Virus record (IMG/VR): IMGVR_UViG_3300017991_000192
Location: 1-41,497 of that record
Reading direction: 5' to 3' (one strand)
Length of the DNA stretch: 41,497 nucleotides
DNA from: a virus
Shown here: piece after piece, positions 10,318-34,232 of the stretch
Position numbering within the stretch: the stretch's first letter is position 1
Layout: each line of letters opens with the position of its first letter
Program-made: the position numbers and the translations under genes
Notes under the pieces: model-generated
What the model was told of the DNA's origin: nothing
Seen by the model: only the letters and a program-made list of their open reading frames with translations
Database searches by the model: none

Positions 10318-10339
10318 TCCTTATATGAGGGAGGGGTCT
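10318..10339 (-). promoter_or_regulatory. Phage RNA polymerase promoter, virion operon copy
   Basis: Exact copy of the element AGACCCCTCCCTCATATAAG plus GA on the minus strand. The part CCCTCATATAAGGA resembles the core of the T3 promoter, CCCTCACTAAAGGGA. Identical copies are at 22753-22774 and 30026-30047. A perfect 7-bp inverted repeat, GGGTCTA/TAGACCC, overlaps its upstream edge in this copy only. It is placed to transcribe the portal, scaffold, capsid and tail genes, like the T7 class III promoters. Confidence 0.82.
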
Positions 10340-15904: not shown

Positions 15905-16839
15905 TATAGTTCCTCCTTTAACAAGTGGGCAATCGTACTCCCCACGTTATATACGGCCCGAATTTCCTTTTTATCCAAAACGTCAAGCGCGTCCCCCGCA
16001 TCTGCAAGAAACTCTTGGCGGGCATCGTCTAAGATCCTCTGGATATATGTCCCAATTTGGCTGGACTCTTCAATCGGACCGTATTTAGAAAACACACTAA
16101 GCATCCGATTCCGTGTAATGTATGTGCGAAACGTAGCATTCAGCCGTTCAGCACGGGTATCTCCAAGTTTGACTTTCTTCTTGGCCCGCTTCTCGCGCTC
16201 GCTGAACTCCGGGTTTTTCTTCTTGAGATAGAAAGGACCACCATCAATAAAATAAACTTCCTGTGTCCACCACGGTTTGATAACAACACCCTCCATCAGG
16301 TTTCCAGGCTTTGGGTTTAAACTCGTAGGCCTCTTGATGTCATAATCCAAAGCGACTTGAAGACCGTTACACCACGCGATCACAGGGCACAGCATCGAGA
16401 GTATGTGTAAATCGTCTTGAAAGAAGTTATACGCAGTCTTGGCTGGCATAAGCTTTCCGTTTATTCTGACGTCAAAAAACTTTATGTCCTGTTTCTCCCC
16501 ATACTCCACGCGATTCTGAATACCAGGACCAAACAATTCACCACAAAGCGTCACCGGAACACGGGAAGAGTCTACAAATTTTTGGACACGTTTCCATGCA
16601 TCCTGATAATATTCAAGGACTCCCCACACGTTATAAAAATGATCTCCCTTGCAGCGGATCTGCTTACGCGAAGCAACTTGCATTTCGGAATCAGGAGAAA
16701 AGATAAGCTGCAAGTTTGCGCCGTCTATTTTTTCCTGAAGGACATACACCTCATTTTCCAGTTCCGGAAAAGTCGCCAACACTTTGCGTATAAACGCTCG
16801 TTGGTAACTGTTCTGGATTTCGGGATATTTCTTAAACAT
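15904..16839 (-). CDS. RNA ligase of the T4 Rnl2 type
   Basis: A 311-residue nucleotidyltransferase. Motif I is LQEKIDGANL, with the adenylated lysine at K37. Motif III is in CGELFGPGIQNRV, motif IV is MEGVVIKPW, and motif V is FYLKKKNPEFSE. The last is followed by a helical C-terminal domain with a TYITRNRMLSVFSKYGPI block, very like T4 Rnl2. Rnl2 seals nicks in double-stranded RNA and RNA-templated ends with ATP. T7 carries a DNA ligase instead, and I see no DNA ligase in this window. The start is ATG after AAGGAGG. It overlaps DNA polymerase by one base. A DNA-joining role cannot be excluded from sequence. Confidence 0.87.
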   Translation of the reverse strand: MFKKYPEIQNSYQRAFIRKVLATFPELENEVYVLQEKIDGANLQLIFSPDSEMQVASRKQIRCKGDHFYNVWGVLEYYQDAWKRVQKFVDSSRVPVTLCGELFGPGIQNRVEYGEKQDIKFFDVRINGKLMPAKTAYNFFQDDLHILSMLCPVIAWCNGLQVALDYDIKRPTSLNPKPGNLMEGVVIKPWWTQEVYFIDGGPFYLKKKNPEFSEREKRAKKKVKLGDTRAERLNATFRTYITRNRMLSVFSKYGPIEESSQIGTYIQRILDDARQEFLADAGDALDVLDKKEIRAVYNVGSTIAHLLKEEL

Positions 16840-22752: not shown

Positions 22753-22774
22753 TCCTTATATGAGGGAGGGGTCT
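22753..22774 (-). promoter_or_regulatory. Phage RNA polymerase promoter, replication operon copy
   Basis: Exact copy of the 22-bp element found at 10318-10339 and 30026-30047. Its upstream edge overlaps the last bases of the RNA polymerase stop codon, and it points into the replication genes. The CCCTCATATAAGGA core resembles the T3 promoter core. This is the expected place for a class II promoter. Confidence 0.82.
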
Positions 22775-25217
22775 ATGCAAAGAAATATTCGGACTGTTCG
22801 ACACCTCTCAAATCTAAGGAACCAAAATCCGGTAACTCAGGAAGTTTATCTTGGAGTTTTTCTGGTATCTGATCTAGAAGATCCTCCCGAAACACATTAA
22901 GAACATCAACTGAATACATCTCGCAAAAAGCCTCTCGAAGAAGAAAGCTCAAGATCTCCATGTCCGCAGCGAGACAACCATAGCTGTCATGCACCATCGA
23001 AAACGCGCGGAGACCCACTTTATAACACTTATTGATCGAGAGCATCATGTGCGCAGCGTCCATCGAGTGTACGTAATTAGGAGCGATGCCCTGGGTTTGC
23101 TTCCGCTTATCTAAAGCGTTCGTTTCTTCATGCACCACGGTTTGTAGGCGCACTGACCCAATAATTAACTCCAAACGTTTTGTGTTATAACGATTATACT
23201 TCTGCATTACGCGCAACCCTGTGGGTGCCTTCCAGTGAATCGGAAGATCCCCCTTCGACACAACTCTAGCGGCCTCTTGCAGCCAGTCCATCGCTTGCCG
23301 TGCAGCGACCACAACTTCCCCGATAGCCTTATAGACAATCTCCGCAAGATAGCGGCAAGCGGGCCACCACATCTTTTTATCAGCGATATAGTAGTGGCCC
23401 TTCTCAGTCGCCTGTTTTTGAAGCTCAGCAATAAGTTGATTACACATGCCGTTTTGAGTCGCCCCATAGGGTAACGTCATGACGTTTCTCTTGACCAACT
23501 TTCGGTCAATCTTATCAACCCACAATTTTGCCCACTTGTTTCCCTCAACCTCAGCCTCAATCTCGATCCGTCCGGCGACGACATCTGCAACTTGCTGGTA
23601 GATATCTTGAGGTTTGTCTGCAGGAATCAGATTGACCGCAGCACCTCCAACTTCATCCCGAAGCATCGCACTAAAATTTTGGAGACCATTACAGGCACCA
23701 TCCACTGCCACGGGCAGGTGCGACACAAACCCCTCCGGATCATTCCAATAGCCGTCGAGCTCATAACAACACGCGAGAAACTGGTATGGCTTATCAGCCT
23801 CAACCCACCACCGATTTCTAAAAGGTTGCACAGTCGATGCAACGATATCCTCAGCATGGTCTTTTACCCACTGGACACGATCCTCAAGGGAGGCTTTGTC
23901 GTAGCCATAGCAATTTGCAGTGTGAATCATGAGCCAACGAAGAGCCTTTTTATCCAGGCGTTTACCCTGTGCAAACTCTAGGAGCCCTTTCGCTGTATCA
24001 TCCCCCTGCGGATTAAGGAATACAGGCAGAGGGTACGCACGCCCGCGCCAGTCCAACTGATAGGGAAAATAAAACCGAGGTTCACTTTTAAACCGACGAG
24101 CAATGGTGATTTTCTTGGCAAGGGCAGCTACCTTAGACTTCGTGCGCCAATTTTGCTCGTAAACTGCGGAGGCCTGTTTCTTCCACTCCTTCAACACCTC
24201 TTTATCATCATCAAAACAACTGTGATTCTTCATCCGTGAGATAGTGGAGTTACACTGCGGGCATAGCGGCAAGGGCATCTCGTCGCGCCGAGGAAGACCG
24301 AGCTCCTGATCTCCTCCCAGTTCCCAGGCCTCCACCAAAACGTCGTAAACATTGCGATTAATACGCCACGCCGTATCTTGGAGGGCATTCACTGCCTGAT
24401 AAACCGGCTGACAATCCATGCCGTCTAACTCTTGGATGTACTGCTGGTTTCGAGTTTTAACGAGAGGAAATTTATTGATCTTCTGCGAGAGGTACCCGCC
24501 ACCGCGCGCTCCCTGCCATGGGCGCGGCTTGACCAACATCGGGAGCAACACAGGGAAAAGCAGGGCGCAATCGTCGTGCGCCTTCTGGAGATACTCCAAA
24601 GTTTCGGGAGCAGCCTGTAGAGTGGATTTTCTCCACTTCTTATCCCGAATCGCCACAATTTGGCTCAACTGCGTCGAATCACAAAAGATCCCTATAAGGC
24701 GAGCACCTAGTCTGATTTTCTCGGCATGTGGCCAGTCCTCCTGGGTAATCCCTGCCCACTTCGCGGACCGCTTTAAGAGAATCCTTTTGTACCTGTAACT
24801 GGTGGCTTTACGAACACCTTCTTTTACATGCCGATACAGGCCCGCATTCTCTTCTTGGAAAATTGAAAAATTCAATTCATCTTCTAAAAGGTTTGCAATC
24901 TCCAAAGCTACAGCACTCACACTGTGCCGTGAGGCAATCGCATTGACACACTGTCGGGCAGTGATAAAGGCGACAACGTCTGAATCGAACGACTTGAGAT
25001 ACGTCTTAATCTGCCCCAACTGATGCTTTGGTGTGATCGCCCTATTCTCACAGAACTCTGTAATCGCCTGTGAAAGGGGCTCAATGGCGTCCAGAATCAG
25101 TCGTTGACCAGGAGGCATGTCTGCCTCACCCCGCTTCGCACGAGTCTCCCGGTACTGCGCAACTCCCATAGCGACTGACTCCTCTTCTAACTGGTACTGC
25201 CTCTCCACTGTATTCAT
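22773..25217 (-). CDS. Single-subunit DNA-dependent RNA polymerase (T7 gp1-like)
   Basis: An 814-residue protein (T7 has 883). Catalytic motifs are complete: motif A PVAVDGACNGLQNFSAM (Asp506), motif B KRNVMTLPYGATQNG (Lys576, Tyr584), and motif C MVHDSYGCLA (Asp744). It also has GIAPNYVHSMDAAHM and the conserved FYFPYQLDWRGRAYPLP block. It transcribes phage genes from its own promoters, for which the three 22-bp repeats are the candidates. The ATG follows AGGAGA. A sigma70-like promoter and two operator-like repeats lie just upstream, so expression is probably host-driven and repressible. Confidence 0.97.
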   Translation of the reverse strand: MNTVERQYQLEEESVAMGVAQYRETRAKRGEADMPPGQRLILDAIEPLSQAITEFCENRAITPKHQLGQIKTYLKSFDSDVVAFITARQCVNAIASRHSVSAVALEIANLLEDELNFSIFQEENAGLYRHVKEGVRKATSYRYKRILLKRSAKWAGITQEDWPHAEKIRLGARLIGIFCDSTQLSQIVAIRDKKWRKSTLQAAPETLEYLQKAHDDCALLFPVLLPMLVKPRPWQGARGGGYLSQKINKFPLVKTRNQQYIQELDGMDCQPVYQAVNALQDTAWRINRNVYDVLVEAWELGGDQELGLPRRDEMPLPLCPQCNSTISRMKNHSCFDDDKEVLKEWKKQASAVYEQNWRTKSKVAALAKKITIARRFKSEPRFYFPYQLDWRGRAYPLPVFLNPQGDDTAKGLLEFAQGKRLDKKALRWLMIHTANCYGYDKASLEDRVQWVKDHAEDIVASTVQPFRNRWWVEADKPYQFLACCYELDGYWNDPEGFVSHLPVAVDGACNGLQNFSAMLRDEVGGAAVNLIPADKPQDIYQQVADVVAGRIEIEAEVEGNKWAKLWVDKIDRKLVKRNVMTLPYGATQNGMCNQLIAELQKQATEKGHYYIADKKMWWPACRYLAEIVYKAIGEVVVAARQAMDWLQEAARVVSKGDLPIHWKAPTGLRVMQKYNRYNTKRLELIIGSVRLQTVVHEETNALDKRKQTQGIAPNYVHSMDAAHMMLSINKCYKVGLRAFSMVHDSYGCLAADMEILSFLLREAFCEMYSVDVLNVFREDLLDQIPEKLQDKLPELPDFGSLDLRGVEQSEYFFA

Positions 25218-25232
25218 TCAGATCTCCTGTCC

Positions 25233-25261
25233 ATAAAAATTTGAGTTACGAAATTTGACAA
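25233..25261 (-). promoter_or_regulatory. Candidate host promoter for the RNA polymerase gene
   Basis: On the minus strand TTGTCA (25261-25256), a 17-bp spacer and TTTTAT (25238-25233). The expected start is only about 9 nt before the ATG, so the leader would begin at the ribosome site. One copy of the repeat GTAACTCAAATTTT fills the spacer, which suits repression by a DNA-binding protein such as the upstream XRE-like product. This is an inference from spacing. Confidence 0.45.
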
Positions 25262-25301
25262 AAAATCCCTATCTCCCCACGCGCCTCAAAATTTGAGTTA
25301 C
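25236..25301 (-). repeat. Two operator-like direct repeats before RNA polymerase
   Basis: GTAACTCAAATTTT occurs exactly at 25249-25236 and 25301-25288 (minus strand), 52 bp apart. A close variant is at 28301-28288. The copy at 25288 is part of a 13-base palindrome, CTCAAAATTTGAG. These are candidate binding sites for a lysogeny regulator. Confidence 0.6.
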
Positions 25302-25360: not shown

Positions 25361-26182
25361 TTAAACAGAGTAACTAGGTGGGATACTCTCAGCCCGCTCC
25401 AGGAGAGACACAGCATCTTGGAGTTGAGCTGGATTAAGGTGAGCATACCGTTCTGTCACGTGAATCGTTGAGTGCCCTAACCAGCGTTGAACCACATATA
25501 AAGACACTCCCTTTTGAACTAAACGCGACGCGCAGGTATGTCGTAACGTGTGGATGGTAACTTCAATCGCTGGACGTGTTTTCCGAAACAGATATTTCAC
25601 TCGATTATCACTCAGCGTAAACTTGTTCCGATGCTTCAGAATTTGTACGACACGTTTTGTCATTGGCACTGACCTGGGACGATCATTCTTAGATTCCCAA
25701 ATCATAATTAGATTATGATCAAAATCTACATCTTTCCGGACCAGTCGCAGAGCCTCAGATAGCCGCATCCCAGTATCTACCAGGATAACCACCAGATCAG
25801 CCATCTCGTCTTCACCTAAAGACCGCAGCTCAGAAACAATCTGATTTTCTTCATCCTCAGACAGGACGTGAAAACGTGTGGGTTTTTCAGCCGTACGGTA
25901 TTTGTTAAACCGAGGCATCGTGATCACTTCCCCCCAGTCCTCCTGAGCAAGCCTCAGAATCGTCTGCAAGGTGGATAACTTCCGGTTTATCGTCGTAGCA
26001 CCATTGCCTTCCTTCCTGAATCGATTGACCAACTCTTGAAGAGTCTTCTCGGTAATCTTTGATAGTGAAATTTCACCGAGATGCCGCTCCAGGTGCCGAC
26101 AATTTGACGCTACTGATCGATACGACCGGCTTGAATTCCAGTGTTCACGTAGTGCGCGTAAAGTTGCGTCAGCAAGTTTCAT
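25361..26182 (-). CDS. Tyrosine recombinase / integrase (early-region copy)
   Basis: A 273-residue protein. The SAM-like N-terminal core-binding domain (about residues 1-90) is followed by the catalytic domain with all active-site residues: Arg140 (DTGMRLSEAL), Lys165 (ESKND), His211-x-x-Arg214 (HTLRHTCASRL), His237 (WLGHST) and Tyr246 (ERYAHL). It resembles XerC/D-like phage integrases. No arm-binding AP2-type N-terminal domain is evident. It overlaps the HTH gene by 4 nt (ATGA) and lies just upstream of the RNA polymerase gene, where integrase-bearing marine T7-like phages such as P-SSP7 keep theirs. A second integrase lies at 32177-33151. Confidence 0.95.
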   Translation of the reverse strand: MKLADATLRALREHWNSSRSYRSVASNCRHLERHLGEISLSKITEKTLQELVNRFRKEGNGATTINRKLSTLQTILRLAQEDWGEVITMPRFNKYRTAEKPTRFHVLSEDEENQIVSELRSLGEDEMADLVVILVDTGMRLSEALRLVRKDVDFDHNLIMIWESKNDRPRSVPMTKRVVQILKHRNKFTLSDNRVKYLFRKTRPAIEVTIHTLRHTCASRLVQKGVSLYVVQRWLGHSTIHVTERYAHLNPAQLQDAVSLLERAESIPPSYSV

Positions 26183-26430
26183 TTTTTCTCCTTCTTCCCT
26201 GCGTACACTTCTGCTTCACATAGAAGCGGACTAGATGTTTCAACATAAGGATTGAACCAGCGTTCAGGCCACATCCAAGCTTCTCGTGATACTGTAGTCA
26301 CGGCTTCGAGATCCTCTGCCATCTTCCGGGAAATCGAACGTTGACCCCGGACGATATAACTCAACGAAACATGTGATATCCGCGCCCGACGCGCGATTTC
26401 TGCTTGAGTCATGAGTTCCCGTACGGTCAT
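26179..26430 (-). CDS. XRE-type HTH regulator (putative lysogeny repressor)
   Basis: An 83-residue protein with a classic Cro/C1-type HTH: LMTQAEIARRARISHVSLSY then IVRGQRSISRKMAEDLEAVT, ending in a Trp-rich AWMWPERWFNP segment. There is no C-terminal protease or oligomerisation domain, so it is smaller than a lambda-type repressor. It is coupled to the integrase by ATGA, has AGGAGG 9 nt upstream, and is preceded by a near-consensus host promoter. The pair looks like a lysogeny module. Likely targets are the operator-like repeats near the RNA polymerase promoter. It could instead be an excision or Cro-like control protein. Confidence 0.85.
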   Translation of the reverse strand: MTVRELMTQAEIARRARISHVSLSYIVRGQRSISRKMAEDLEAVTTVSREAWMWPERWFNPYVETSSPLLCEAEVYAGKKEKK

Positions 26431-26432
26431 CT

Positions 26433-26645
26433 TTAAGCACCTCCTTTCGCTGACGTGTCCGTAACCTTAAACAAGAATTTAGTTAATGTCAAGGTTTTCT
26501 CCAGGTGGCCCTTCAACCTTGTGAGTTGATGAGCCAGCCGGAGGCACCGACTGAGTTGCTGGTGAGGCCCCCTGCCGTGGTCCGTCTCAGCGTCCTGCGC
26601 AGGTCTACTCACGAGTCTTACTTTTTTCTCGCCGGTGCGTTCCAT
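26433..26645 (-). CDS. Possible small basic protein before the HTH gene
   Basis: A 70-codon ORF that begins directly after the TAG of the upstream gene, with no ribosome site of its own. The product is rich in Arg, Lys and His and looks like ordinary coding or random sequence. The putative promoter for the HTH gene lies inside its 3' part. It may be a coupled gene, or the region may simply be a leader. Confidence 0.35.
   Translation of the reverse strand: MERTGEKKVRLVSRPAQDAETDHGRGPHQQLSRCLRLAHQLTRLKGHLEKTLTLTKFLFKVTDTSAKGGA
26464..26492 (-). promoter_or_regulatory. Host-type promoter for the HTH-integrase pair
   Basis: On the minus strand TTGACA (26492-26487), 17-bp spacer, TAAGGT (26469-26464), about 34 nt before the HTH ATG. 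A perfect -35 and correct spacing support a sigma70 promoter that could keep the regulator expressed in a lysogen. Confidence 0.6.
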
Positions 26646-26846
26646 CTATCGATTGAATTCTTCGTCAAAAGCTTCCAGTGAATTTATGCCAAAATCCAAG
26701 TTACATCGCGCGGCTTTCAGGTCCGCAATCAACTCCTTGGACTCCTGGGGCGTTGCACCAAATGGTCTAATCTCGTTGACTAAATCAATCATTTGACGCG
26801 CGGCATCCACGACCCTTTCCAAACCCCTAATTGATACGTTAGGCAT
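26646..26846 (-). CDS. Unrecognised small early protein (66 residues)
   Basis: The start is the ATG at 26846 with AGGAGG 8 nt upstream; the open frame to 26906 lies in the previous gene. The product is helical, with GLERVVDAARQMIDLVNEI then ESKELIADLKAARCNLDFGI. There are no cysteine pairs or membrane segments. It is part of the early operon. Confidence 0.7.
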   Translation of the reverse strand: MPNVSIRGLERVVDAARQMIDLVNEIRPFGATPQESKELIADLKAARCNLDFGINSLEAFDEEFNR

Positions 26847-26847
26847 C

Positions 26848-27225
26848 TTAAACCTCCTCTTTAATTTTATCGTAGGCATGTTCAGCCTGTTCTCTGGTTG
26901 TTTCAATTCCTTCCCGTGCTTGCGTTGCCTGTATCGTTCTGACCATCAGTTCCCGTCTAAGGATCTGATTATCAAGAATTTTATGAATATCTATTCGCCG
27001 GTGTGCCGGTTTCCAATCACAAGACATGCATATTCCAGCATATTGATGCACGGCTTTTCGCCCACAATTAGGACATCTCGTCGCATCACTGCCAGCTTGT
27101 TCTTCTGGTGTACAGGGATTCTCCCGCCGCTCGTCGAGAAGCTCCCGGTAACAATCAGCCTGTGATTTTCCAGTGGTCAGCATCCGTAAATACGCATCTT
27201 CCCAACACTTTTCACATGCGGACAT
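26848..27225 (-). CDS. Zinc-ribbon early protein
   Basis: A 125-residue protein. It opens with MSACEKCWEDAYLRMLTTGK followed by SQADCYRELLDERRENPCTP. This type of sequence recurs in phage and mobile-element proteins. A canonical zinc ribbon follows, CPNC...CMSC (about residues 51-69), and then a helical tail. The start is ATG after GAGG; a longer frame to 27261 is less likely. It may bind nucleic acid or a host enzyme. Confidence 0.78.
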   Translation of the reverse strand: MSACEKCWEDAYLRMLTTGKSQADCYRELLDERRENPCTPEEQAGSDATRCPNCGRKAVHQYAGICMSCDWKPAHRRIDIHKILDNQILRRELMVRTIQATQAREGIETTREQAEHAYDKIKEEV

Positions 27226-27226
27226 C

Positions 27227-27481
27227 TTAAACCTCCCCTGTTTCGGTTCGCATACTTTCATAGGTGATCGAACGTCCCTCTTCCAGAGCCCTTAGCGCGT
27301 GCTTAGAGCTTGTAATCAAAGTTTCCCGCGAGTAGCCTTCCTGAACCATCAGAGCCAGCTCTTCCAGTTCCTTGACGGCGGCTGCCATGTGGGCGACTTG
27401 ATGCACCTCCGCAACGCGCTTTCCGAGTAGGATGTACGCGCGCGTTAAATCCTGGTGACAAATGGGACAAATAATTTTCAT
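27227..27481 (-). CDS. Small early protein with N-terminal Cys pair
   Basis: An 84-residue protein starting at the ATG at 27481, overlapping the upstream stop (ATGA) with AAGGAG just upstream. It begins MKIICPICHQDL (one C-x2-C pair and a His), and the rest is helical (VHQVAHMAAAVKELEELALM). This is possibly half of a zinc site completed by dimerisation or by the later His residues. The function is unknown. Confidence 0.72.
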   Translation of the reverse strand: MKIICPICHQDLTRAYILLGKRVAEVHQVAHMAAAVKELEELALMVQEGYSRETLITSSKHALRALEEGRSITYESMRTETGEV

Positions 27482-27684
27482 GTTATCTCCTTCCTGCACC
27501 CGTTAAAGGGCACTTCACGTCGCTGTAGTTCATACCACATGATCATCTCCAGGTTGTCCGTACCTGAAAACTCACGGCAAAACAACTGCCACTGTCTTAA
27601 GAGTGTTAAAGCTTTAGAAAATTCTTCAACATCCCGATCGGACAGTTCTCCGATATCCTTTCGCCACTCTTTAATTGTTGCCAT
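27478..27684 (-). CDS. Unrecognised small early protein (68 residues)
   Basis: The start is ATG with GGAGGAG about 8 nt upstream. The product is acidic and helical (DIGELSDRDVEEFSKALTLL). It is coupled on both sides with short gaps or overlaps in the early operon. No motif is recognised. Confidence 0.72.
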   Translation of the reverse strand: MATIKEWRKDIGELSDRDVEEFSKALTLLRQWQLFCREFSGTDNLEMIMWYELQRREVPFNGCRKEIT

Positions 27685-27686
27685 AT

Positions 27687-27851
27687 CTACTCCTCCTCTT
27701 TCTTGTACATCTGTGAGTTATTCATCAGGCTGGCTAGCCATTCCAGCTCAACCTTTTTCTGCCGGTTGCGAATCTCACGTTTTTCGCGTAAAGATAAGTA
27801 CCGGTTTGACCTTCTGTATTTTGGATTTTTTCTCCAATCAAAATTCATCAT
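27687..27851 (-). CDS. Unrecognised small basic protein (54 residues)
   Basis: A short ORF with AAGGAG about 9 nt before tandem ATG codons at 27851 and 27848. The 54-residue product is basic in its first half (RKNPKYRRSNRYLSLREKRE) and acidic at the end. It sits 2 nt before the next gene. The strong ribosome site and tight spacing support it. Confidence 0.65.
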   Translation of the reverse strand: MMNFDWRKNPKYRRSNRYLSLREKREIRNRQKKVELEWLASLMNNSQMYKKEEE

Positions 27852-27972
27852 GTTTTGCACTCCTTATCTAATCTCTTGGATGTCCTCAAAGCTGAGACCT
27901 TGAGGACACTTACAGACTAGACCTCTTGCTACTCCTCCCGGCATCTTGAGGTGTTAATGTTTGTATCCATCC
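27852..27972 (-). other. Short gap in the early operon
   Basis: About 120 bases. A 26-codon ORF (27864-27944) and a 13-codon ORF are possible here, but neither has a convincing ribosome site. I see no terminator or promoter. Confidence 0.4.
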
Positions 27973-28125
27973 TCATTTCCCCTTTCTGGTTAACTCTTCG
28001 GCCAACCATTTAAAGTTGTCGCGCCGCCTTTCGAGTAGATCTTTCATAGCTGACACTTCAGCCGACACGCGAATAAGCTTTTGGTGTTGAGCTTTGAGTA
28101 GCTTTTGGTGTTGTCTCAAGGTCAT
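27973..28125 (-). CDS. Unrecognised small early protein (50 residues)
   Basis: The ATG shares one base with the upstream TAA (TAATG), so translation is coupled. The 50-residue product is basic and helical and contains a short internal duplication (QHQKLLKA then QHQKLIRV) encoded by repeated CACCAAAAGCT. No family is recognised. Confidence 0.62.
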   Translation of the reverse strand: MTLRQHQKLLKAQHQKLIRVSAEVSAMKDLLERRRDNFKWLAEELTRKGK

Positions 28126-28268
28126 TATTCAGACTCCAAAACAAAACTTCTGAAAATATCTTTTGCCATGAATTCATTTCGCGTTTGTCCCACAATTTCA
28201 CCGGCAAAATAGATGATGAAAATACCTTCCTTTTCGATCAGCTCTACGTTATTAATTTGAATCGTCAT
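28125..28268 (-). CDS. Unrecognised small early protein (47 residues)
   Basis: AAGGAG lies about 9 nt before the ATG at 28268. The 47-residue product starts with beta-like MTIQINNVELIEKEGIFIIY followed by FAGEIVGQT. It resembles short phage or host antirestriction-sized proteins in size only. An operator-like repeat (28288-28301) lies 20 nt upstream. Confidence 0.65.
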   Translation of the reverse strand: MTIQINNVELIEKEGIFIIYFAGEIVGQTRNEFMAKDIFRSFVLESE

Positions 28269-28287
28269 GGTTTTTGCTCCTTCCCTC

Positions 28288-28301
28288 TAATTTTGAGTTA
28301 C
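28288..28301 (-). promoter_or_regulatory. Third operator-like repeat, early region
   Basis: GTAACTCAAAATTA on the minus strand is a close variant of the two repeats at the RNA polymerase promoter. It lies between the first and second early genes. I see no clear promoter overlapping it. Confidence 0.4.
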
Positions 28302-28305
28302 ATTT

Positions 28306-28995
28306 TTAGACATACTTTTTGGTGTTTAATGTGGTTTCCAAGTCTGCGATAATCTCGGAAGCTGAGTGTGTCAACCAGTACACTTTTTGTGCTTTACGAT
28401 ACGCGCGTACCGAAGGATATTGTCTTTCAGCATTCCGTGCGTAGCACACATCAGAGCACGCACACATACCGAGATTTTTTGAAGGACACGCCATAGCATT
28501 GCCCATGTTAAAAATCATAATGGTATCGTCTAATTTACCGTTTCCAAGCGACATTTTGACACTTCCCAGTTTTCGATACTTTTTGTTAGCTTTCATATGG
28601 CTTTTTTCAGGTTTATTTCGGCCACTACCATGCACTACAAAAGCAATATTTTTAGGTGTTTGACACAAAGTACACTGTCCGCAACTGCCTGGACACTTGA
28701 CGAAACCTTTTGGGATATCTTTATCGGTCATAACTACAATGGTTTTCCCATTATTGCCATTATCGTGGCCACTTCCTTTCACTTTGAATGTAGCTTTTGA
28801 AAAGTTTAAGTCGCGTCTTGCCGTGTATCCATATGTTTCAATGTTCCAAGTACTTTTAAGATAGTCTGCAATCCGGTTTAATTTCGATACACACGATTGA
28901 CTGAAAAAATCTCCTGATTCATTAAAGCGAAAGTACTGGATATAATCTCCAAGTTTTACCGCCTGTTTCGAGTTAAGTCCTTGTTTTTGCTTCAT
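28306..28995 (-). CDS. gp88-like early protein with apparently reordered halves
   Basis: A 229-residue protein, the first gene after the early host promoter, with AAGGAGG 7 nt before its ATG. Residues 16-45 hold an YFRFNESGDFF block. A YTARRDLNFS block follows, and then a Cys cluster CPGSCGQCTLC. Residues 150-210 hold LGNGKLDDTIMIFNMGNAMA, then CPSKNLGMCACSDVCYA. From memory, phage gp88-type proteins carry these blocks in the opposite order: the GNxKL/CPG block first, the RxHxSGDFF block second. This copy therefore looks circularly permuted. Its function is unknown. First-gene position in T7-like phages is usual for anti-host proteins. Confidence 0.6.
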   Translation of the reverse strand: MKQKQGLNSKQAVKLGDYIQYFRFNESGDFFSQSCVSKLNRIADYLKSTWNIETYGYTARRDLNFSKATFKVKGSGHDNGNNGKTIVVMTDKDIPKGFVKCPGSCGQCTLCQTPKNIAFVVHGSGRNKPEKSHMKANKKYRKLGSVKMSLGNGKLDDTIMIFNMGNAMACPSKNLGMCACSDVCYARNAERQYPSVRAYRKAQKVYWLTHSASEIIADLETTLNTKKYV

Positions 28996-29034
28996 TTTCT
29001 GTCCTCCTTAAGTTGATTTTTTGGCCGAAACCGA

Positions 29035-29067
29035 CTTAAACATAAAATTTGTGTTTAAGATTGTCAA
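29035..29067 (-). promoter_or_regulatory. Major early host promoter with overlapping palindrome
   Basis: On the minus strand TTGACA (29067-29062), 17-bp spacer, TATGTT (29044-29039): a near-consensus sigma70 promoter about 45 nt before the first early gene. An inverted repeat CTTAAACA...TGTTTAAG (29035-29059, 9-bp centre) covers the spacer and -10 region. It is a candidate operator for repression in the lysogen. Confidence 0.75.
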
Positions 29068-29430
29068 GGAAAAAAACACGAAAAAGACGATTTTTTTTTT
29101 CAGGTGTAACTCTGAGTAGCAAAAAACAGATACAAACAAACACGCACGCACAACCAAAATTCAGCTATGAGACCAGTGAGGCACCTGAAACATACCAGAA
29201 AGCCAGTCAATCAGATATACAATCGGATTGAAACGTTTAATTTGCGCCATATACAAGACGGTCGCGGCGCGTGAAGGAAGGAATGCGCACGTGCGCGTGT
29301 TCCTCATGGCTGCGCCCCCGTAGGGGGGGTGTTTTTCGCCCGGAGGATTAGGGTTGGGGTCTCAGAAATTTGTAATAAAATTTTTGGCTCTTACATTTCT
29401 CCTGAACCTTCTTCCGGTAATCTTTTGGTG
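29068..29430. other. Non-coding region upstream of the early promoter
   Basis: About 360 bases with no supported gene on either strand. It contains a plus-strand T tract (29091-29100), a GC-rich stretch with GCGCACGTGCGCG near 29285, and the terminator listed separately. In T7-like phages the packaged ends and the direct terminal repeat lie between the terminase gene and the early promoter, so the true ends are probably within 29.1-30.0 kb. No direct repeat is visible, because a circularised assembly would collapse it to one copy. Confidence 0.5.
29313..29336 (+). terminator. Plus-strand terminator shielding the STAS-like gene
   Basis: Stem CGCCCCC / GGGGGTG (one G-T pair) with loop GTAGG, followed by TTTTT. 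It is oriented on the plus strand although no plus-strand gene lies directly upstream, so it would insulate the promoter at 29431 from incoming transcription. Confidence 0.65.
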
Positions 29431-29459
29431 TTGACAATATCCCAGGACTCCACTAGAGT
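29431..29459 (+). promoter_or_regulatory. Sigma70 promoter of the STAS-like gene
   Basis: TTGACA (29431-29436), 17-bp spacer, TAGAGT (29454-29459). The expected start is about 27 nt before the ATG. A perfect -35, ideal spacing and good -10 make this one of the best host promoters in the window. Confidence 0.75.
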
Positions 29460-29492
29460 TTAACGTCTAATTTATTTGAAAAGGAGCCAATC

Positions 29493-29909
29493 ATGACCAC
29501 CGTACTTTCATCAGAGCGCATTCATCTTACACGAGATGATACTGCGCTGCGTTTTACACTAATCCTTAAAGACACACTGACAGATGACGACCGGCACCGT
29601 GTGCGTGAAGGAATCATTGCCGGATTACAGCCAGATCGTTTTAACCTGTATGACCTTATTATGGACATCTCGCAGCTCGATTCTGTAGGTTTCCTTGGGG
29701 TGGAGACATCCATCACGTACTGGCATGCTGCTATTAAAAAGTTCGGACATCTCTTCGTCAACTGCTACCTCATTTTAGGTGAAAAGTTCGAGTCAGATAT
29801 CCTGTCTCTTCAGGTGAAACATGTAGTTGAAACACTGGGCGCACAGGACAGGTGTGTGGTCTTGACCACTTACGAAGAACTTACAGATCTTCTTAGAGAA
29901 GCTATCTAG
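29493..29909 (+). CDS. STAS-like domain protein, probable lysogeny-expressed moron
   Basis: A 138-residue protein on the plus strand, against its minus-strand neighbours, with AAAAGGAG 7 nt upstream and its own promoter and upstream terminator. The fold pattern resembles STAS / anti-sigma-antagonist domains: a beta strand YDLIMDIS, then QLDSVGFLGVETSITYWHAA, a helix ending at KKFG, then LFVNCYLIL, and a final helix YEELTDLLREAI. The serine phosphorylated in SpoIIAA-type proteins is the second of a DSSG motif. Here that position is Val (DSVG), so ordinary phospho-control is unlikely. It may alter host regulation or membrane traits in the lysogen. The STAS assignment is by eye. Confidence 0.72.
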   Translation: MTTVLSSERIHLTRDDTALRFTLILKDTLTDDDRHRVREGIIAGLQPDRFNLYDLIMDISQLDSVGFLGVETSITYWHAAIKKFGHLFVNCYLILGEKFESDILSLQVKHVVETLGAQDRCVVLTTYEELTDLLREAI

Positions 29910-30004
29910 TCTTTATCTCTGATGCTGATCATTATTAGAGACACAGACCAGGAGGAGAGCTTAAAGACAGACTCCATGTATACTTAAAGTATAACTTAGA
30001 GAGA

Positions 30005-30017
30005 GGGGCTTCGCCCC
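30005..30017 (-). other. GC-rich hairpin downstream of the third phage promoter
   Basis: A perfect GGGGC-GAA-GCCCC hairpin on the minus strand, with weaker GAGAG/CTCTC pairing outside. It begins about 10 nt after the promoter copy at 30026-30047. No T run follows, so it may be a processing or pause site near the genome end. Confidence 0.5.
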
Positions 30018-30025
30018 CGGAGCTC

Positions 30026-30047
30026 TCCTTATATGAGGGAGGGGTCT
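30026..30047 (-). promoter_or_regulatory. Phage RNA polymerase promoter, right-end copy (phiOR-like)
   Basis: Third exact copy of the 22-bp element, just downstream of terminase and tRNA-His and pointing out of the late region toward the presumed genome end. T7 phiOR sits in the same place and acts in replication. Transcripts from it would run antisense to the STAS-like gene. Confidence 0.8.
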
Positions 30048-30052
30048 GTTTA

Positions 30053-30127
30053 TGGGGTGCCTGGAGGGATTCGAACCCTCTAAAAGATGGGCCACAACCA
30101 TCTCCCGCGCCATTTGGGTTCAGGCAC
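30053..30127 (-). tRNA. tRNA-His (anticodon GTG)
   Basis: A cloverleaf can be drawn: acceptor GTGCCTG/CAGGCAC, D arm with 3-bp stem CCC/GGG, anticodon stem GATGG/CCATC with loop TTGTGGC (anticodon GTG), and T arm GAGGG/CCCTC with loop TTCGAAT. Discriminator C73 and the CCA end (30055-30053) are encoded. Oddities are A at position 8 in place of the usual T, a short D stem, and T rather than G at position -1, although C73 would normally pair with G-1 in tRNA-His. It lies 15 nt after the terminase stop. It may be a working phage tRNA or a remnant. Confidence 0.78.
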
Positions 30128-30141
30128 ACCCGCAGATTCTA

Positions 30142-31800
30142 TTAAGCGTGAAACCATTTAGGGCCTTGTGGTTTAACTCCCATGACATGCTCAGCAAAGT
30201 GTGCGAGCTCCTTGTTGAGCTGTTCTTCACGCCACTCGTCGGCAGCAGAATCCTGTTCCTTTGCTAGCCGGTTTTTCCAGTAGGCGACACTTTCAGCGAC
30301 GGCGTCGAGACGGTCATCGTGTGCAAGAGCCCCGCGCTCCAGGGTCATTCGGGTCATCTGATAGAAGAGTTGGTAGTTGATGTCATCAGTTCCCCTGGCG
30401 TCGCGCCGGATCAGTTCTTCATCCACGATCAGTCTGTGTTGATTCATGACAGGCTCTAGGACGTCTATGATACGCCTTTCCTTCTGTACTGAATTGCGGA
30501 TTTCCGAAAGGGTTACCGTGTATTCGTGTTTCTTGAGGATTGGCTTCATGAGTTCCAGGAACATGCCGTCACCAAAGTTACTCTCAATGACGATCTCATG
30601 GACGCCACCTTCCTTGGCCTTTTCTGCAAGGGTGTTGAGTGTCTTCTCTTCGTAGCCTCCGGTGAAGCCACCGGCGTCACACAGGAAGATGTTTCCATGC
30701 ATCATCTTTGAGATGGCATATCCAGTTTCATCCCGGCCTCGACCGGCTGGATCGATGAGCATCACTGCACCTTGATAAGGCCGCCACTCTTTGTCCCACT
30801 TAAGGGGGCGGTATAGACGATCACCTTGGAGTCCAACCATGGGTAGGTCTTGTGGCCGGATCAGCTGTTCAGGACCAGAGCCATACATGAATTTGACTGG
30901 AGCTTTCTCCAGGTCAATATTCCAGACTATCAGGTCAGACAACTTGAGGGGATACTTGTTGGCATCACTGAGAGATGTATCCAACATGAATTGAAGGGCA
31001 AATCCGGAGCGTCCGTATGATGTTTCTCGTTCAATCAGGTCAAAGTCGTTAAAGCGTTCCGGATCAGTAGGAGCTCCTACTTCGAGTCGTGACTTGAGGA
31101 TGTAGGGCGCAAGTCGGTTTCCGAAGAATTTACGGAGGCGTTCTCCAGGCATTCGTGCGGGCCAGATCTTAACTTCGTATCCCCGGTTGGGAAGTACATT
31201 ATAGAGGGACATTTCACACTGAGGAGTCCCCAGGTAGATAATGCGGGAGTGCTTCGCAGGAGTAAGCACTGCGTCGAACTCTTTGACAGCCTCTGAGAGG
31301 CGTTCCCGCATGGTCAATGTGTAAGAGTTCTTAGGTACTTCGATATCGTCAGCTACTATAACATCGGCACGTGATCCTGCGAGCTGTCCAAAAATACCTA
31401 CTGATTTCACTGAAGGGGCATGGTGTGCCCTAGCAGGTCCGACATCGAAAGCAACGTTTGAGTCTCTCTGTTTATTTTTAGGCTGTAAATGCTGAAGGAT
31501 GTCCACCTCCGCGATCAGCCTTTTAGTAAATGTGGAGAAGGCGTCGGCTCTGTCTTTTGAAGCCGACACTACGAGAACTTTAAGTTGGGGATCTCTAAGG
31601 AGTAGCCACAGAACGAAAACAGACGTAATCCAGGACTTACCAACTCCTCGAAAAGCCTCGATGACAGAACGCTTAGGCCCGCGCTGGAGGTAATCAGAGA
31701 TGTCATCTTGAATGGGGGTTGGTGGGGGGAGCAGTAAGTGTTTCCAGATGTAGGCGACGAATTTCTTAAAGTCGGCTTTGAGTTCGTCTAAAGGTGACAT
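30142..31800 (-). CDS. Terminase large subunit (gp19-like)
   Basis: A 552-residue packaging motor (T7 gp19 has 586). The ATPase domain has Walker A FRGVGKSW near residues 50-57, VLVVSASKDRADAFSTF, and Walker B VIVADDIEV. The nuclease domain has VMLIDPAGRGRDETGYAISK (catalytic Asp) and an Asp pair near ALAHDDRLDAVAE. It cuts concatemers and pumps DNA into proheads. The start is ATG after GGAGG. I find no recognisable small terminase gene beside it. Confidence 0.96.
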   Translation of the reverse strand: MSPLDELKADFKKFVAYIWKHLLLPPPTPIQDDISDYLQRGPKRSVIEAFRGVGKSWITSVFVLWLLLRDPQLKVLVVSASKDRADAFSTFTKRLIAEVDILQHLQPKNKQRDSNVAFDVGPARAHHAPSVKSVGIFGQLAGSRADVIVADDIEVPKNSYTLTMRERLSEAVKEFDAVLTPAKHSRIIYLGTPQCEMSLYNVLPNRGYEVKIWPARMPGERLRKFFGNRLAPYILKSRLEVGAPTDPERFNDFDLIERETSYGRSGFALQFMLDTSLSDANKYPLKLSDLIVWNIDLEKAPVKFMYGSGPEQLIRPQDLPMVGLQGDRLYRPLKWDKEWRPYQGAVMLIDPAGRGRDETGYAISKMMHGNIFLCDAGGFTGGYEEKTLNTLAEKAKEGGVHEIVIESNFGDGMFLELMKPILKKHEYTVTLSEIRNSVQKERRIIDVLEPVMNQHRLIVDEELIRRDARGTDDINYQLFYQMTRMTLERGALAHDDRLDAVAESVAYWKNRLAKEQDSAADEWREEQLNKELAHFAEHVMGVKPQGPKWFHA

Positions 31801-31863
31801 TTTTCGGTTTCCTCCAAAACTGTGTTGACATTAACCCCAAAATTCGTGTATAAGCCTCTCAGC

Positions 31864-31884
31864 CCCACGAGGTTCGACGATCTC
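31864..31884. repeat. 20-bp sequence shared with the gp16-like gene
   Basis: CCACGAGGTTCGACGATCTC occurs here (31865-31884) and at 40826-40845. In both places the minus strand can read Glu-Ile-Val-Glu-Pro-Arg-Gly. Here that reading belongs to a third frame that ends in ...LIHEFWG before the terminase gene and includes a proline-rich NPPPN segment. Confidence 0.7.
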
Positions 31885-31906
31885 CAGGTTAGGTGGGGGA
31901 TTGGGT

Positions 31907-32143
31907 TCATGGAGTGATGAAAGCCGTACCTGCTGCGTACACGCCAATAGTGAATATGAATACAGCAACTCCAACCAGGATTCGATTCACACTGTCGCGC
32001 CAAGTTTGCAAATTAGTTATGTCTGCTGCGTGGGTGGCGCACCTGAGAAAACCCTTGTTTTCAGCTTCTTTGAATCTCTGGCACAGAATAGACAACTTTA
32101 AATCCATCCGGATCAGCAGATCGTGTTCTTCTTGTTTGGTCAT
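31907..32143 (-). CDS. Small membrane protein, XhlA-like (possible holin or lysis accessory)
   Basis: A 78-residue protein: a helical, charged N-terminal part (HDLLIRMDLKLSILCQRFKE, likely coiled coil) and one C-terminal membrane segment ILVGVAVFIFTIGVYAAGTA (about residues 54-73). This layout matches XhlA-type hemolysin/holin accessory proteins. T7 places its holin gene 17.5 just before the terminase genes, so position supports a lysis role. AAAGAGGA lies 9 nt before the ATG. It is divergent from the plus-strand integrase, with 33 bp between starts. Confidence 0.7.
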   Translation of the reverse strand: MTKQEEHDLLIRMDLKLSILCQRFKEAENKGFLRCATHAADITNLQTWRDSVNRILVGVAVFIFTIGVYAAGTAFITP

Positions 32144-32176
32144 ATTGAATATCCTCTTTCTAAAAGGGAGGTATTT

Positions 32177-33151
32177 ATGAGTATTTCAGGGAGAAAATTA
32201 AAAGTTGGGCTGCGATTTCGGTACGAGTTTCGGCATGAGGGTCAGCGCATACAGTCTCGATACACGTATCTCTCTAAGAGGGATGCCCGCGCTGCTGAAA
32301 AGGAACACCATGATAGACTTTCCGGAGAGACGTTGCGTGATTTGTTTAAGGCGCGACTTGAAGACATGAGATTGAAGGGGATGTCGCGAGACTATCTTTC
32401 AGAAAATCGCAGATATTATATCCGAGCTCAAAATGTGTGGGGAGAAAATACGCCGGTGCGAACCATCGACAAACCAAAAGCACACGATTTGATTCAACTC
32501 GAAGCTGCACGGCTGGCCCAGGCAGGAAAGACTAACCACAAATTAAATGGAATGATCCGGTGTCTCCGAGCTTTTTTCTACTGGAGTATCGACGAGCGGG
32601 GCATCATGATGGAGAATCCCTTCTATAAATTCAAGTTATATCCTATCGCATTGAAACAGAAATACATTCCGTCAGATCGACAGGTAGCCGCCGTCCGGAA
32701 ACTCTTGACGAGAAAGCAGCGATCTTTATTTGATTTTATAGAAGAAACAGGTTGCCGAATCATGGAGGCTGTCTCACTCCAAGTTGACGATATTAATTTG
32801 AGGGCACAGACTGTGACACTCTGGACGCGAAAAGCCAAGAATCGTAATCTAACTCCGCGCATCATTCCGTTTCCACACTGTTTAAAAGACAAGCAACTTC
32901 CGAAGGCTGGAGCCGTATTCAAGACCTGGGATGCTTATCCCCGGTTTTTAGAAGAGGCGATGGTGCTTTATAAAAAATCGCCGGTCGGCTATTTATCACC
33001 CACTTGGAGTTGGCACAATTTACGCCATCGAAGAGCCTCGCTGTGGGCTGCTGCAGGTATGAGCACCTTTGAGATAATGTCACGGTTGGGCCACAATAAT
33101 CTCTCAACGACGATGCAGTATCTCCAACTCTTGGGTTATTCAGCCCTTTAA
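32177..33151 (+). CDS. Tyrosine integrase next to attP
   Basis: A 324-residue protein on the plus strand. I start at the ATG at 32177 with GGGAGG 6 nt upstream. The N-terminal 40 residues (LKVGLRFRYEFRHEGQRIQS) look like an AP2-type arm-binding domain. A SAM-like core-binding domain follows, and then the catalytic domain with Arg194 (ETGCRIMEAVSL), Lys near 219-221, His280-x-x-Arg283 (HNLRHRRAS), His306 (RLGHNN) and Tyr315 (MQYLQL). All active residues are present. The attP-like tRNA fragment begins 95 bp downstream. Opposite strand, own ribosome site and adjoining att site mark it as an integration cassette. Confidence 0.95.
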   Translation: MSISGRKLKVGLRFRYEFRHEGQRIQSRYTYLSKRDARAAEKEHHDRLSGETLRDLFKARLEDMRLKGMSRDYLSENRRYYIRAQNVWGENTPVRTIDKPKAHDLIQLEAARLAQAGKTNHKLNGMIRCLRAFFYWSIDERGIMMENPFYKFKLYPIALKQKYIPSDRQVAAVRKLLTRKQRSLFDFIEETGCRIMEAVSLQVDDINLRAQTVTLWTRKAKNRNLTPRIIPFPHCLKDKQLPKAGAVFKTWDAYPRFLEEAMVLYKKSPVGYLSPTWSWHNLRHRRASLWAAAGMSTFEIMSRLGHNNLSTTMQYLQLLGYSAL

Positions 33152-33167
33152 AGGGGGAACACAGGTA

Positions 33168-33399
33168 GAGGGTAGAGGGGTACCCTCTGGAGGGTATTTC
33201 CTGAAATAAACATTAAGTAAATACAAGATGTTATGGGCTACTAGCCAGGACTTAAAATCCCTTATCGCTTGCCGGTGTGCGGGTTCGATTCCCGCCCCAG
33301 GCACCATAAATCAGTAATTAAATGAGGGAGTTAGCATAAGGACAGACTGCTCCTTTAAATAATGCTCGGAGGGTACCCCCGGTCTTGTAGGATACCCTC
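33168..33399. repeat. GAGGGTA heptamers flanking attP (candidate integrase arm sites)
   Basis: GAGGGTA or its complement occurs at 33168-33174 (+), 33181-33187 (-), 33190-33196 (+), 33369-33375 (+) and 33393-33399 (-). They lie on both sides of the tRNA fragment at about 50-90 bp. Placement and orientation resemble arm-type or accessory binding sites in attP. The right pair also forms a hairpin after the 262-residue gene. Confidence 0.55.
33246..33306 (+). other. Putative attP core: 3' part of a tRNA-Leu(UAA) gene
   Basis: From the anticodon arm to CCA this matches a tRNA-Leu: loop CTTAAAA (anticodon TAA), long variable arm TATCG/CGGTG, T arm GCGGG/CCCGC with loop TTCGATT, acceptor 3' strand CCCAGGC, discriminator A, CCA. 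The 5' half (acceptor 5' strand and D arm) is absent upstream. Phages that integrate into tRNA genes carry exactly such a 3' segment, so recombination restores the host gene. It lies 95 bp after the plus-strand integrase. Confidence 0.88.
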
Positions 33400-33409
33400 C
33401 AAGATGTTT

Positions 33410-34198
33410 TTACGTCCAACTCAGCGACGCATCCTCAAACTCCATGGAGACCGACAGGCCTTTGGCAGCCGTCCCGGAGTGTATAGCATCGATATCGATG
33501 TAGATCATATCTCCGGTTTGAACGTCGTCATAAGATGTGTTGACAACACCATCGCTGGCAAAGAGTTCATCGCCAATGGTAACTTTGGTGGAAAGCATGT
33601 CTCTGTGCTTCTCAGGGATAATGCTTCCAGTGCCAATCGTCTTATTGGCTTCCGCGACGAGGGCGGCGTTGGTGACCTCAAAGTAATCGTCATCCACGGC
33701 AGTTATGGTGAAGGTTCCGTTGTTGCCCGCATTGAAATTCTGTGCCGCAATACGGAGCACATCTCCCGCTTTCAGGGAGGCCAGGGAATCAGCTATGACA
33801 GGATCAGTTCCGGTACCGTCATAGGTATACCGTGCGGTGTTGCCGCCCTGATCTGTAATGTCAAACTGGGTGGTTGAATCTCCCAGGGCCGCAGTTTGTC
33901 GTACCCGTCGGAGCTGAATGTCACAGCTTCCTGTCACACCAAGAACCGAATTGGCTGCGGTGACGCCGGTCAGATTGAAACCATTCATAGAGGCGGGCAC
34001 CACGAAACCAGCGAGGCCGTCGGCTACTGCACAATCGGTATCAGCAGCCACCACACTTCTTTCAATCAGTTTCTGGAGGACCTGCAGATCATCCAGGCTC
34101 TTCTCTGTGGACTGGCCACATGTAATGTCCCGGATGGTAATCATGTCAGTACGAACGAGGGTTCTCAATGCCGGGAAAACTTCAGTAGGATCGCTCAT
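33410..34198 (-). CDS. Unrecognised protein downstream of the tail fibre genes (possible structural)
   Basis: A 262-residue protein starting at the ATG at 34198 with AAGGAG 9 nt upstream. It is rich in Thr, Asp, Gly, Val and Ala with many short beta-like segments (GNTARYTYDGTGTDPVIADS, GDVLRIAAQNFNAGNNGTF), typical of phage decoration or fibre-associated proteins. The segment NAGNNGTFTITAVDDDYFEV recurs in phage baseplate or fibre beta domains. It is the last virion-side gene before the integration cassette. The function is inferred only from composition and place. Confidence 0.75.
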   Translation of the reverse strand: MSDPTEVFPALRTLVRTDMITIRDITCGQSTEKSLDDLQVLQKLIERSVVAADTDCAVADGLAGFVVPASMNGFNLTGVTAANSVLGVTGSCDIQLRRVRQTAALGDSTTQFDITDQGGNTARYTYDGTGTDPVIADSLASLKAGDVLRIAAQNFNAGNNGTFTITAVDDDYFEVTNAALVAEANKTIGTGSIIPEKHRDMLSTKVTIGDELFASDGVVNTSYDDVQTGDMIYIDIDAIHSGTAAKGLSVSMEFEDASLSWT

Positions 34199-34232
34199 TA
34201 AAATCACTCCTTATCGATAAGGTTTACGGTTT

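Follow-up and report, generated by a model that had tools for sequence, protein, structure and literature searches.

Integrase genes in T7-like phages are generally read as a sign of integration and lysogeny, and such genomes normally carry one, with its phage attachment site (attP) close by. In LUZ100, BB8, ProddE, the pelagiphages and the T7-like cyanophages the integrase precedes the RNA polymerase gene, often following a regulator gene, and many of these phages target a tRNA-Leu gene; both the adjacency and the tRNA-Leu targets have been described for LUZ100, pelagiphages and cyanophages (PMC10134795, PMC8776855, PMC6811365). The replacement of a host tRNA-Leu copy by one of phage origin has likewise been reported (PMC6811365; for actinobacteriophages PMC10865867). 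Here we analyze IMG/VR virus record IMGVR_UViG_3300017991_000192, a single record of 41,497 bases, the whole of which is termed the window below. It shares with these phages an integrase gene (Int1) before the RNA polymerase gene. However, unlike the integrase-bearing Autographiviridae, of which 20 were searched and have one integrase each, it encodes a second, unrelated integrase (Int2) with an attP near the gene for the terminase large subunit (TerL), and no attP was found for the first integrase. Titles and abstract openings of publications on two integrases in phages and on integrases in Autographiviridae mention no T7-like phage with two. We consider it moderately probable that integration into the same host tRNA gene has passed to Int2 and its attP, with Int1 most likely being a leftover or a helper.

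The initial annotation had described two complete tyrosine integrases with every catalytic residue, differing in length, layout and strand, and this description holds. Int1 (25361..26182, minus strand; PF00589) is 273 amino acids long and Int2 (32177..33151, plus strand; PF00589) 324. Both genes are intact and score well above the Pfam Phage_integrase cut-off of 27.1 bits, with 90.9 and 46.3 bits respectively. Each retains all six catalytic residues: R140, K165, H211, R214, H237 and Y246 in Int1, and R194, K219, H280, R283, H306 and Y315 in Int2. Neither is odd in composition, with G+C contents of 0.468 and 0.466 and codon-usage cosines of 0.867 and 0.899, compared to 0.86-0.97 in nine core genes. 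They belong to different families, and only Int2 has an arm-binding domain. Int1 is of the T7-like type and occupies the standard T7-like place between the regulator and RNA polymerase genes; in a tree of 79 integrases it lies on one side of a branch with all 35 T7-like rows (SH-aLRT 97, quick search), which places it in the T7-like clade. It begins directly at its core-binding domain, with 0 residues ahead of the column at which this domain starts, and is thus devoid of an arm-binding domain; the same column is preceded by 56-64 residues in 14 of 20 named relatives and by 3-6 residues in the other six.

Int2 is encoded between the tail genes and TerL, and its likelier start is the ATG at 32177, which follows GGGAGG, rather than the GTG at 32123. 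An AlphaFold2 model built with 15 relatives (mean predicted local distance difference test score, pLDDT, 86.5) contains a four-helix core-binding domain and a catalytic domain, and predicts three strands and a helix for residues 2-50, as in an arm-binding domain; a single-sequence fold had a pLDDT of 37.4 and was not used. The Int_N and Arm-DNA-bind_4 domains are recognized in 4 and 2, respectively, of 11 Int2-family members, and neither is recognized in Int2 itself. Foldseek searches with the model gave best matches among solved structures that include Tn1549 Int and full-length lambda Int, with which Int2 shares the core-binding and catalytic domains, and in the case of lambda also the arm-binding domain, at 12-18% identity; lambda does not target a tRNA gene (PMC10865867). 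In the tree of 79 integrases Int2 groups with 30 sequences from chromosomes of Desulfobacterota and from other phage contigs (support 99) and falls outside the T7-like clade, a common clade with the T7-like rows receiving a p value of 0.03 in the approximately unbiased test (long branch, quick search). The members of this group (e.g. L060-L064, L178-L190) resemble Int2 in domain layout and have tRNA genes beside many of them. Unlike the window, 19 phage contigs with Int2-type integrases gave no T7-like RNA polymerase (PF00940) in a search that lacked a working positive control; 13 of them were searched again with two positive controls, which matched.

The tRNA fragment resembling an attP, which the initial annotation had seen beside the second integrase, proved to be the 3' half of a tRNA-Leu(UAA), 59 nucleotides from the anticodon stem to the CCA, downstream of Int2 (33248..33306, plus strand). 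This core is identical at 57 of 59 positions to the tRNA-Leu(UAA) of G002 and at 56 of 59 to that of G001, the two closest genomes, both from one family of Desulfobacterales, and the mismatches are confined to the variable arm. A gapped pattern of the half matched 31 loci in GTDB genomes, 29 of which are titled Deltaproteobacteria, orders or families of Desulfobacterota, or Syntrophobacterales, the other two being Pseudomonadota and Nomurabacteria. Five candidate arm-type sites of the form RGAGGGTA surround the core: on the Int2 side AGAGGGTA at 33167..33174 (plus) and 33181..33188 (minus) and GGAGGGTA at 33189..33196 (plus), and beyond the core GGAGGGTA at 33368..33375 (plus) and 33393..33400 (minus). 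RGAGGGTA occurs six times in the window, with five copies within 234 nucleotides around the core and the sixth at 24028. When the window was scanned for five-copy octamer clusters, the one other hit was a coding tandem repeat, and 40 shuffles gave no hit. As arm sites need an arm domain, which Int2 possesses and Int1 lacks, and as Int2 lies directly before the attP, we assign the octamers to Int2, for which the layout is that of a lambda-type attP with arm-type candidates flanking the core; their binding is predicted from sequence. The locus does not conform to tRNA-dependent lysogeny, with its short core, unrebuilt host tRNA and phage tRNA of the same isotype: the 59-nucleotide core reaching the CCA would rebuild tRNA-Leu, and the window contains no complete tRNA-Leu, its only phage tRNA being a tRNA-His.

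The same tRNA-Leu(UAA)-half pattern was found in IMG/VR on two other contigs, L394 (3300000557_000228) and L395 (3300033148_005563), both of which are T7-like. Their integrases, of 331 and 338 amino acids, are 33% and 36% identical to Int1, and in contrast to the window the tRNA half lies between this longer Int1-type integrase and the RNA polymerase gene. Each also carries a set of five octamers, with three towards the integrase and two past the tRNA half, and these are of different sequence (TGTCGCRA and TGACGGGR); RGAGGGTA is not present in their att regions. Int2 was not seen on them, the two being partial contigs of 8.4 and 8.9 kb. The L395 phage is integrated at tRNA-Leu(UAA) in the metagenome-assembled genome Meg22_1214_Bin_335 with both junctions visible: at one (L026) a complete tRNA-Leu is joined to the integrase side, identical to L395 over 155 of 155 positions, and at the other (L015) the half alone is joined to the RNA polymerase side, identical over 652 of 652. 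Junctions were seen for this relative alone, and no genome with the phage of the window integrated was found. The window thus shares its target, 3'-half form and 3+2 arm layout with T7-like phages of its host group, and differs from L394 and L395 in the place of the site and the enzyme adjoining it. The orientation of the integrase relative to the tRNA was considered as a discriminator and dropped, since L394 and L395 disagree with each other in this respect.

The dependence of such repeats on an arm domain was examined in 27 relatives, comprising 17 of the 20 named phages (ProddE, Pasto and S-SRP02 were left out) and 10 IMG/VR loci, with arm-domain labels that we assigned ourselves. A repeat cluster exceeding all 20 shuffles of the gap between the integrase and RNA polymerase genes was present in 7 of 18 relatives with an arm domain and in 0 of 9 without one. 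Once the pre-picked L394 and L395 are set aside, 5 of 16 arm-bearing relatives have a cluster, with four copies each.

That one integrase at most is the rule in relatives, as had been stated beforehand, is borne out by a PF00589 survey of 87 T7-like whole records, chosen by similarity and length rather than at random and including many fragments among those from IMG/VR: 63 have one integrase, 23 have none and a single record has two, the second belonging to a neighboring element. The survey combines 36 longer IMG/VR records (36 of 85 loci, being 4 of 5 plus 32 of 80; one integrase in 22, none in 14) and 31 further ones from contigs of about 18 kb or more outside the earlier sets (31 of 80 loci; one in 21, none in 9, two in 1). 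The remainder are 20 named phages, T7-like records taken from 40 listed rows, all 20 of which have one integrase; here an integrase resembling Int1 was the selection criterion, so that one was guaranteed. Among records of at least 37 kb exactly one integrase is found in 45 of 49, none in 3, and a second in a neighboring element in 1. G483 (L240) was rejected as a second phage with two integrases: the other integrase gene is located past the tRNA-Leu half on the host side, and therefore belongs to a neighboring element at the same tRNA gene. In this region (L312, G483:1-6000) the T7-like prophage and the other element flank one tRNA-Leu(UAA) region, giving two unrelated integrases at one tRNA gene, and that other element has its own integrase and, by eye, a small ORF (open reading frame) resembling helix-turn-helix proteins; such an arrangement is a possible route for swaps. 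The ends of the provirus-like records G476, G477, G478, G481 and G502 contain no tRNA-Leu, with one tRNA-Lys in G476, and share no repeat of at least 15 nucleotides between both ends except for one of 15 nucleotides in G481. IMG/VR searches with Int1 alone or Int2 alone recovered no relative.

A second attP near 25.3 kb, proposed in the initial annotation as a site to look for, was not found. The 143-nucleotide gap between Int1 and RNA polymerase shares at most 9 nucleotides with host tRNAs (75 of 77 matches, from two related host genomes), in line with the 8-12 nucleotides of ten shuffles; the best match, 9 nucleotides of tRNA-Leu(UAA), equals the shuffles. Rfam scans, searches for anticodon arms with mismatches, and BLAST of the gap against G001 and G002 (best E 1.3) likewise gave nothing above chance near Int1. 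This gap is the location of the attachment site in several relatives, with the 5' half of a tRNA-Leu in HTVC105P, HTVC109P and S-TIP37. Six of the 20 named phages (L039, L176, L201, L202, L205, L212), which are all of those with a complete tRNA-Leu(UAA) near the integrase according to ARAGORN, also show a short CTTAAAA core, distinct from that tRNA, in the stretch from integrase to RNA polymerase; this would be expected of a phage tRNA that makes up for a disrupted host tRNA. For the tRNA of LUZ100, imprecise excision has been suggested (PMC10134795). The gap in the window instead contains operator-like repeats: two copies of AAATTTGAGTTAC (25237..25301; copies 25237-25249 and 25289-25301), whose operator function is putative, and a three-copy repeat around AAATTTGA, which exceeds its shuffles and may likewise be operator-like. 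A variant of AAATTTGAGTTAC occurs at 28289-28301. The regulator, of the XRE/HTH_3 type (26179..26430, minus strand; Pfam HTH_3 1.1e-6), overlaps the start of Int1 by 4 nucleotides; a gene annotated as MarR, helix-turn-helix, transcription regulator or DNA-binding stands just ahead of the integrase in 14 of the 20 named relatives.

Taken together, we propose that Int2 would be the enzyme that integrates the phage. In this model the RGAGGGTA octamers would serve as arm sites for its N-terminal domain, and the core-binding and catalytic domains would carry out recombination between the anticodon-arm core of the attP (33248-33306) and the matching sequence of the host tRNA-Leu(UAA) gene. That gene would be restored on integration by the 3' half that the phage brings in. 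ORF265 (33410..34207, minus strand), which lies on the far side of the attP and matches no family (only E 0.081), would then adjoin the restored tRNA, with Int2 at the opposite end. The lysogeny module that the group had earlier, Int1 with the XRE gene, would have been retained at its usual place before the RNA polymerase gene. Int1 is most likely a leftover or helper because it has no arm domain and no recognizable attP beside it; the direction of the replacement, the idleness of Int1 and the identity of the host are likewise matters of probability. Several points weigh against this proposal. Int1 is intact, and the integrase of S-TIP37 is also arm-less, yet both its gene and the attP are needed for integration in that phage (PMC8776855); therefore Int1 may still act. 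As Int1-type relatives use the same tRNA-Leu(UAA) core, it might even act on the 33.25-kb attP in trans. The repeat cluster was not found in 11 of the 18 arm-bearing relatives, so that the method misses over half of them. Of the eight stretches of the window covered by the host-tRNA comparison, two contain matches slightly above ten shuffles, namely 13 nucleotides of tRNA-Leu(CAA) at 29337-29349 and 12 of tRNA-Gln(CTG) at 31974-31985; both are away from Int1 and are taken for chance. The relatives of Int2 are distant, at most 33-35% identical, its tree branch is long, and the tRNAs adjoining Int2-type relatives mostly point towards the integrase, opposite to the window. No excisionase was recognized among the ORFs scanned for families, and the evidence comes from one contig without a close relative.

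Among the explanations offered in the initial annotation, replacement or capture is the better supported, because the attP of Int2 copies the target and layout used by Int1-type relatives, and evidence neither for nor against a division of labor (integration as opposed to excision or dimer resolution) was found. Concurrent use of both enzymes, with Int2 acting at the attP and the arm-less Int1, of Xer-like size, serving in excision, at a second target or in the resolution of genome multimers, appears unlikely to us. It would account for the intactness of Int1, its 4-nucleotide overlap with the regulator gene and its conserved place, and would accord with the activity that arm-less members of its group can have (PMC8776855), and with the ability of either kind of system to use the anticodon core of tRNA-Leu(UAA). 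However, no second attP was found for Int1, and relatives manage with one integrase (45 of the 49 records of at least 37 kb, 20 of them chosen for having one). The alternative that Int1 uses the 33.25-kb attP in trans, Int2 being a passenger that landed beside the site, seems improbable: the target gene and 3'-half type do match those of the Int1-type relatives L394 and L395, in L394 together with the orientation of integrase to core, but the five arm-type repeats of the site have no counterpart in the arm-less Int1, and it is the arm-bearing Int2 that adjoins them.

A contaminating or misjoined contig, the outcome that would have undone the original observation, is quite improbable. Two unrelated integrases in one genome are indeed exceptional in our survey; against a misassembly of two phages stand the T7-like genes on both sides of Int2 (TerL on one; a fiber matched in many relatives, and fiber assembly), with two immediate neighbors of no family, the agreement of Int2 in composition and codon use with the rest of the window, and an attP of the kind found in T7-like phages of this host group. 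Moreover, both contig ends fall inside what is apparently a single large gene for an internal virion protein; the reading frame is offset where they join, and the N-terminal part has 86 amino acids against 60-106 expected from five relatives. On this account we view the contig as an almost closed circle with Int2 inside; the genome is probably nearly complete and circularly permuted. It is very improbable that Int1 or the tRNA-His gene of the window marks a second route, of the tRNA-dependent-lysogeny type, into the host tRNA-His. The window does encode a complete tRNA-His(GTG) directly after TerL (30053..30127, minus strand), which shares 13 nucleotides of the anticodon arm with the tRNA-His of G001 and G002 and is unlike it elsewhere; with up to 2 mismatches allowed, its T-arm/acceptor pattern matches a single genome out of 297 in the phylum. 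However, these 13 nucleotides are the anticodon loop and the ends of its stem, and a short core standing apart from the tRNA is absent near Int1; the gene is rejected as an attP for now. The integrase-proximal tRNA-His of L109 and L166 was dropped as a phage gene: it looks like host DNA because it follows a tRNA-Leu half. A tRNA-His after TerL is also seen in the T7-like contig L138.

The remainder of the window has T7-like gene order, mostly on the minus strand: RNA polymerase, single-stranded DNA-binding protein, endonuclease I, primase-helicase, DNA polymerase, portal, scaffold, capsid, tail tube, internal virion proteins, fiber and TerL. RNA polymerase, endonuclease I, TerL, one internal virion protein and fiber assembly were tested against families, the other names being our reading of order and sequence. 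The single-subunit RNA polymerase (22773..25217, minus strand; PF00940 1.1e-123; phrog_414), together with a T7-type TerL (30142..31800, minus strand; phrog_38 4.6e-119), endonuclease I (Phage_endo_I 3.3e-51) and internal virion protein (phrog_308), places the virus in the Autographiviridae. We take it for a temperate T7-like virus whose host probably belongs to the Desulfobacterota (sulfate-reducing-type bacteria). A 78-amino-acid ORF lies between Int2 and TerL (31907..32143, minus strand), divergent from Int2, and has only a weak match to a family below the cut-off. The repeat ACCCCTCCCTCATATAAGGA, T7-promoter-like by eye, is found on the minus strand at 30026..30045, with identical copies at 10318-10337 and 22753-22772, i.e. 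after TerL, before the portal region and after RNA polymerase; the three copies are exact, and 100 shuffles gave 0 matches even with up to 3 mismatches allowed. A gene for an Rnl2 RNA ligase-related protein of 311 amino acids (15904-16839, minus strand; TIGR02307 98.5 bits, below the cut-off of 197) adjoins that of DNA polymerase. The early region includes a GP88-like gene (28306-28995, minus strand; 229 amino acids, PF17338) with a low G+C content of 0.394, directly followed by a AATTTTGAGTTAC repeat. A plus-strand ORF of 138 amino acids (29493-29909), STAS-like by eye, is possibly an extra gene of host origin; profile scans gave no credible family match for it, only a single chance-level match far under its cut-off.

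The position of the attP may also bear on how the lysogen is silenced. In the L395 prophage integration separates the RNA polymerase gene from the integrase side. Integration at the Int2 site would not cut RNA polymerase off from the early region, so silencing would have to come from the XRE repressor acting with the AAATTTGAGTTAC sites, a role of these elements in the lysogen that we infer. We offer only tentatively, as a doubtful proposition, that with two integrase families kept and the attachment site moved from the gap between integrase and RNA polymerase to the late region, a repressor is replacing integration as the means of silencing in this phage, both systems being present. In the window the standard place and the enzyme come apart, so that the phage is probably integrated by an enzyme other than the one encoded at that place. 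The locus looks like a natural case of integrase turnover in which the same host target and 3+2 arm layout were kept, and it warns that in T7-like phages an attP is not to be inferred from the RNA-polymerase-proximal integrase alone.

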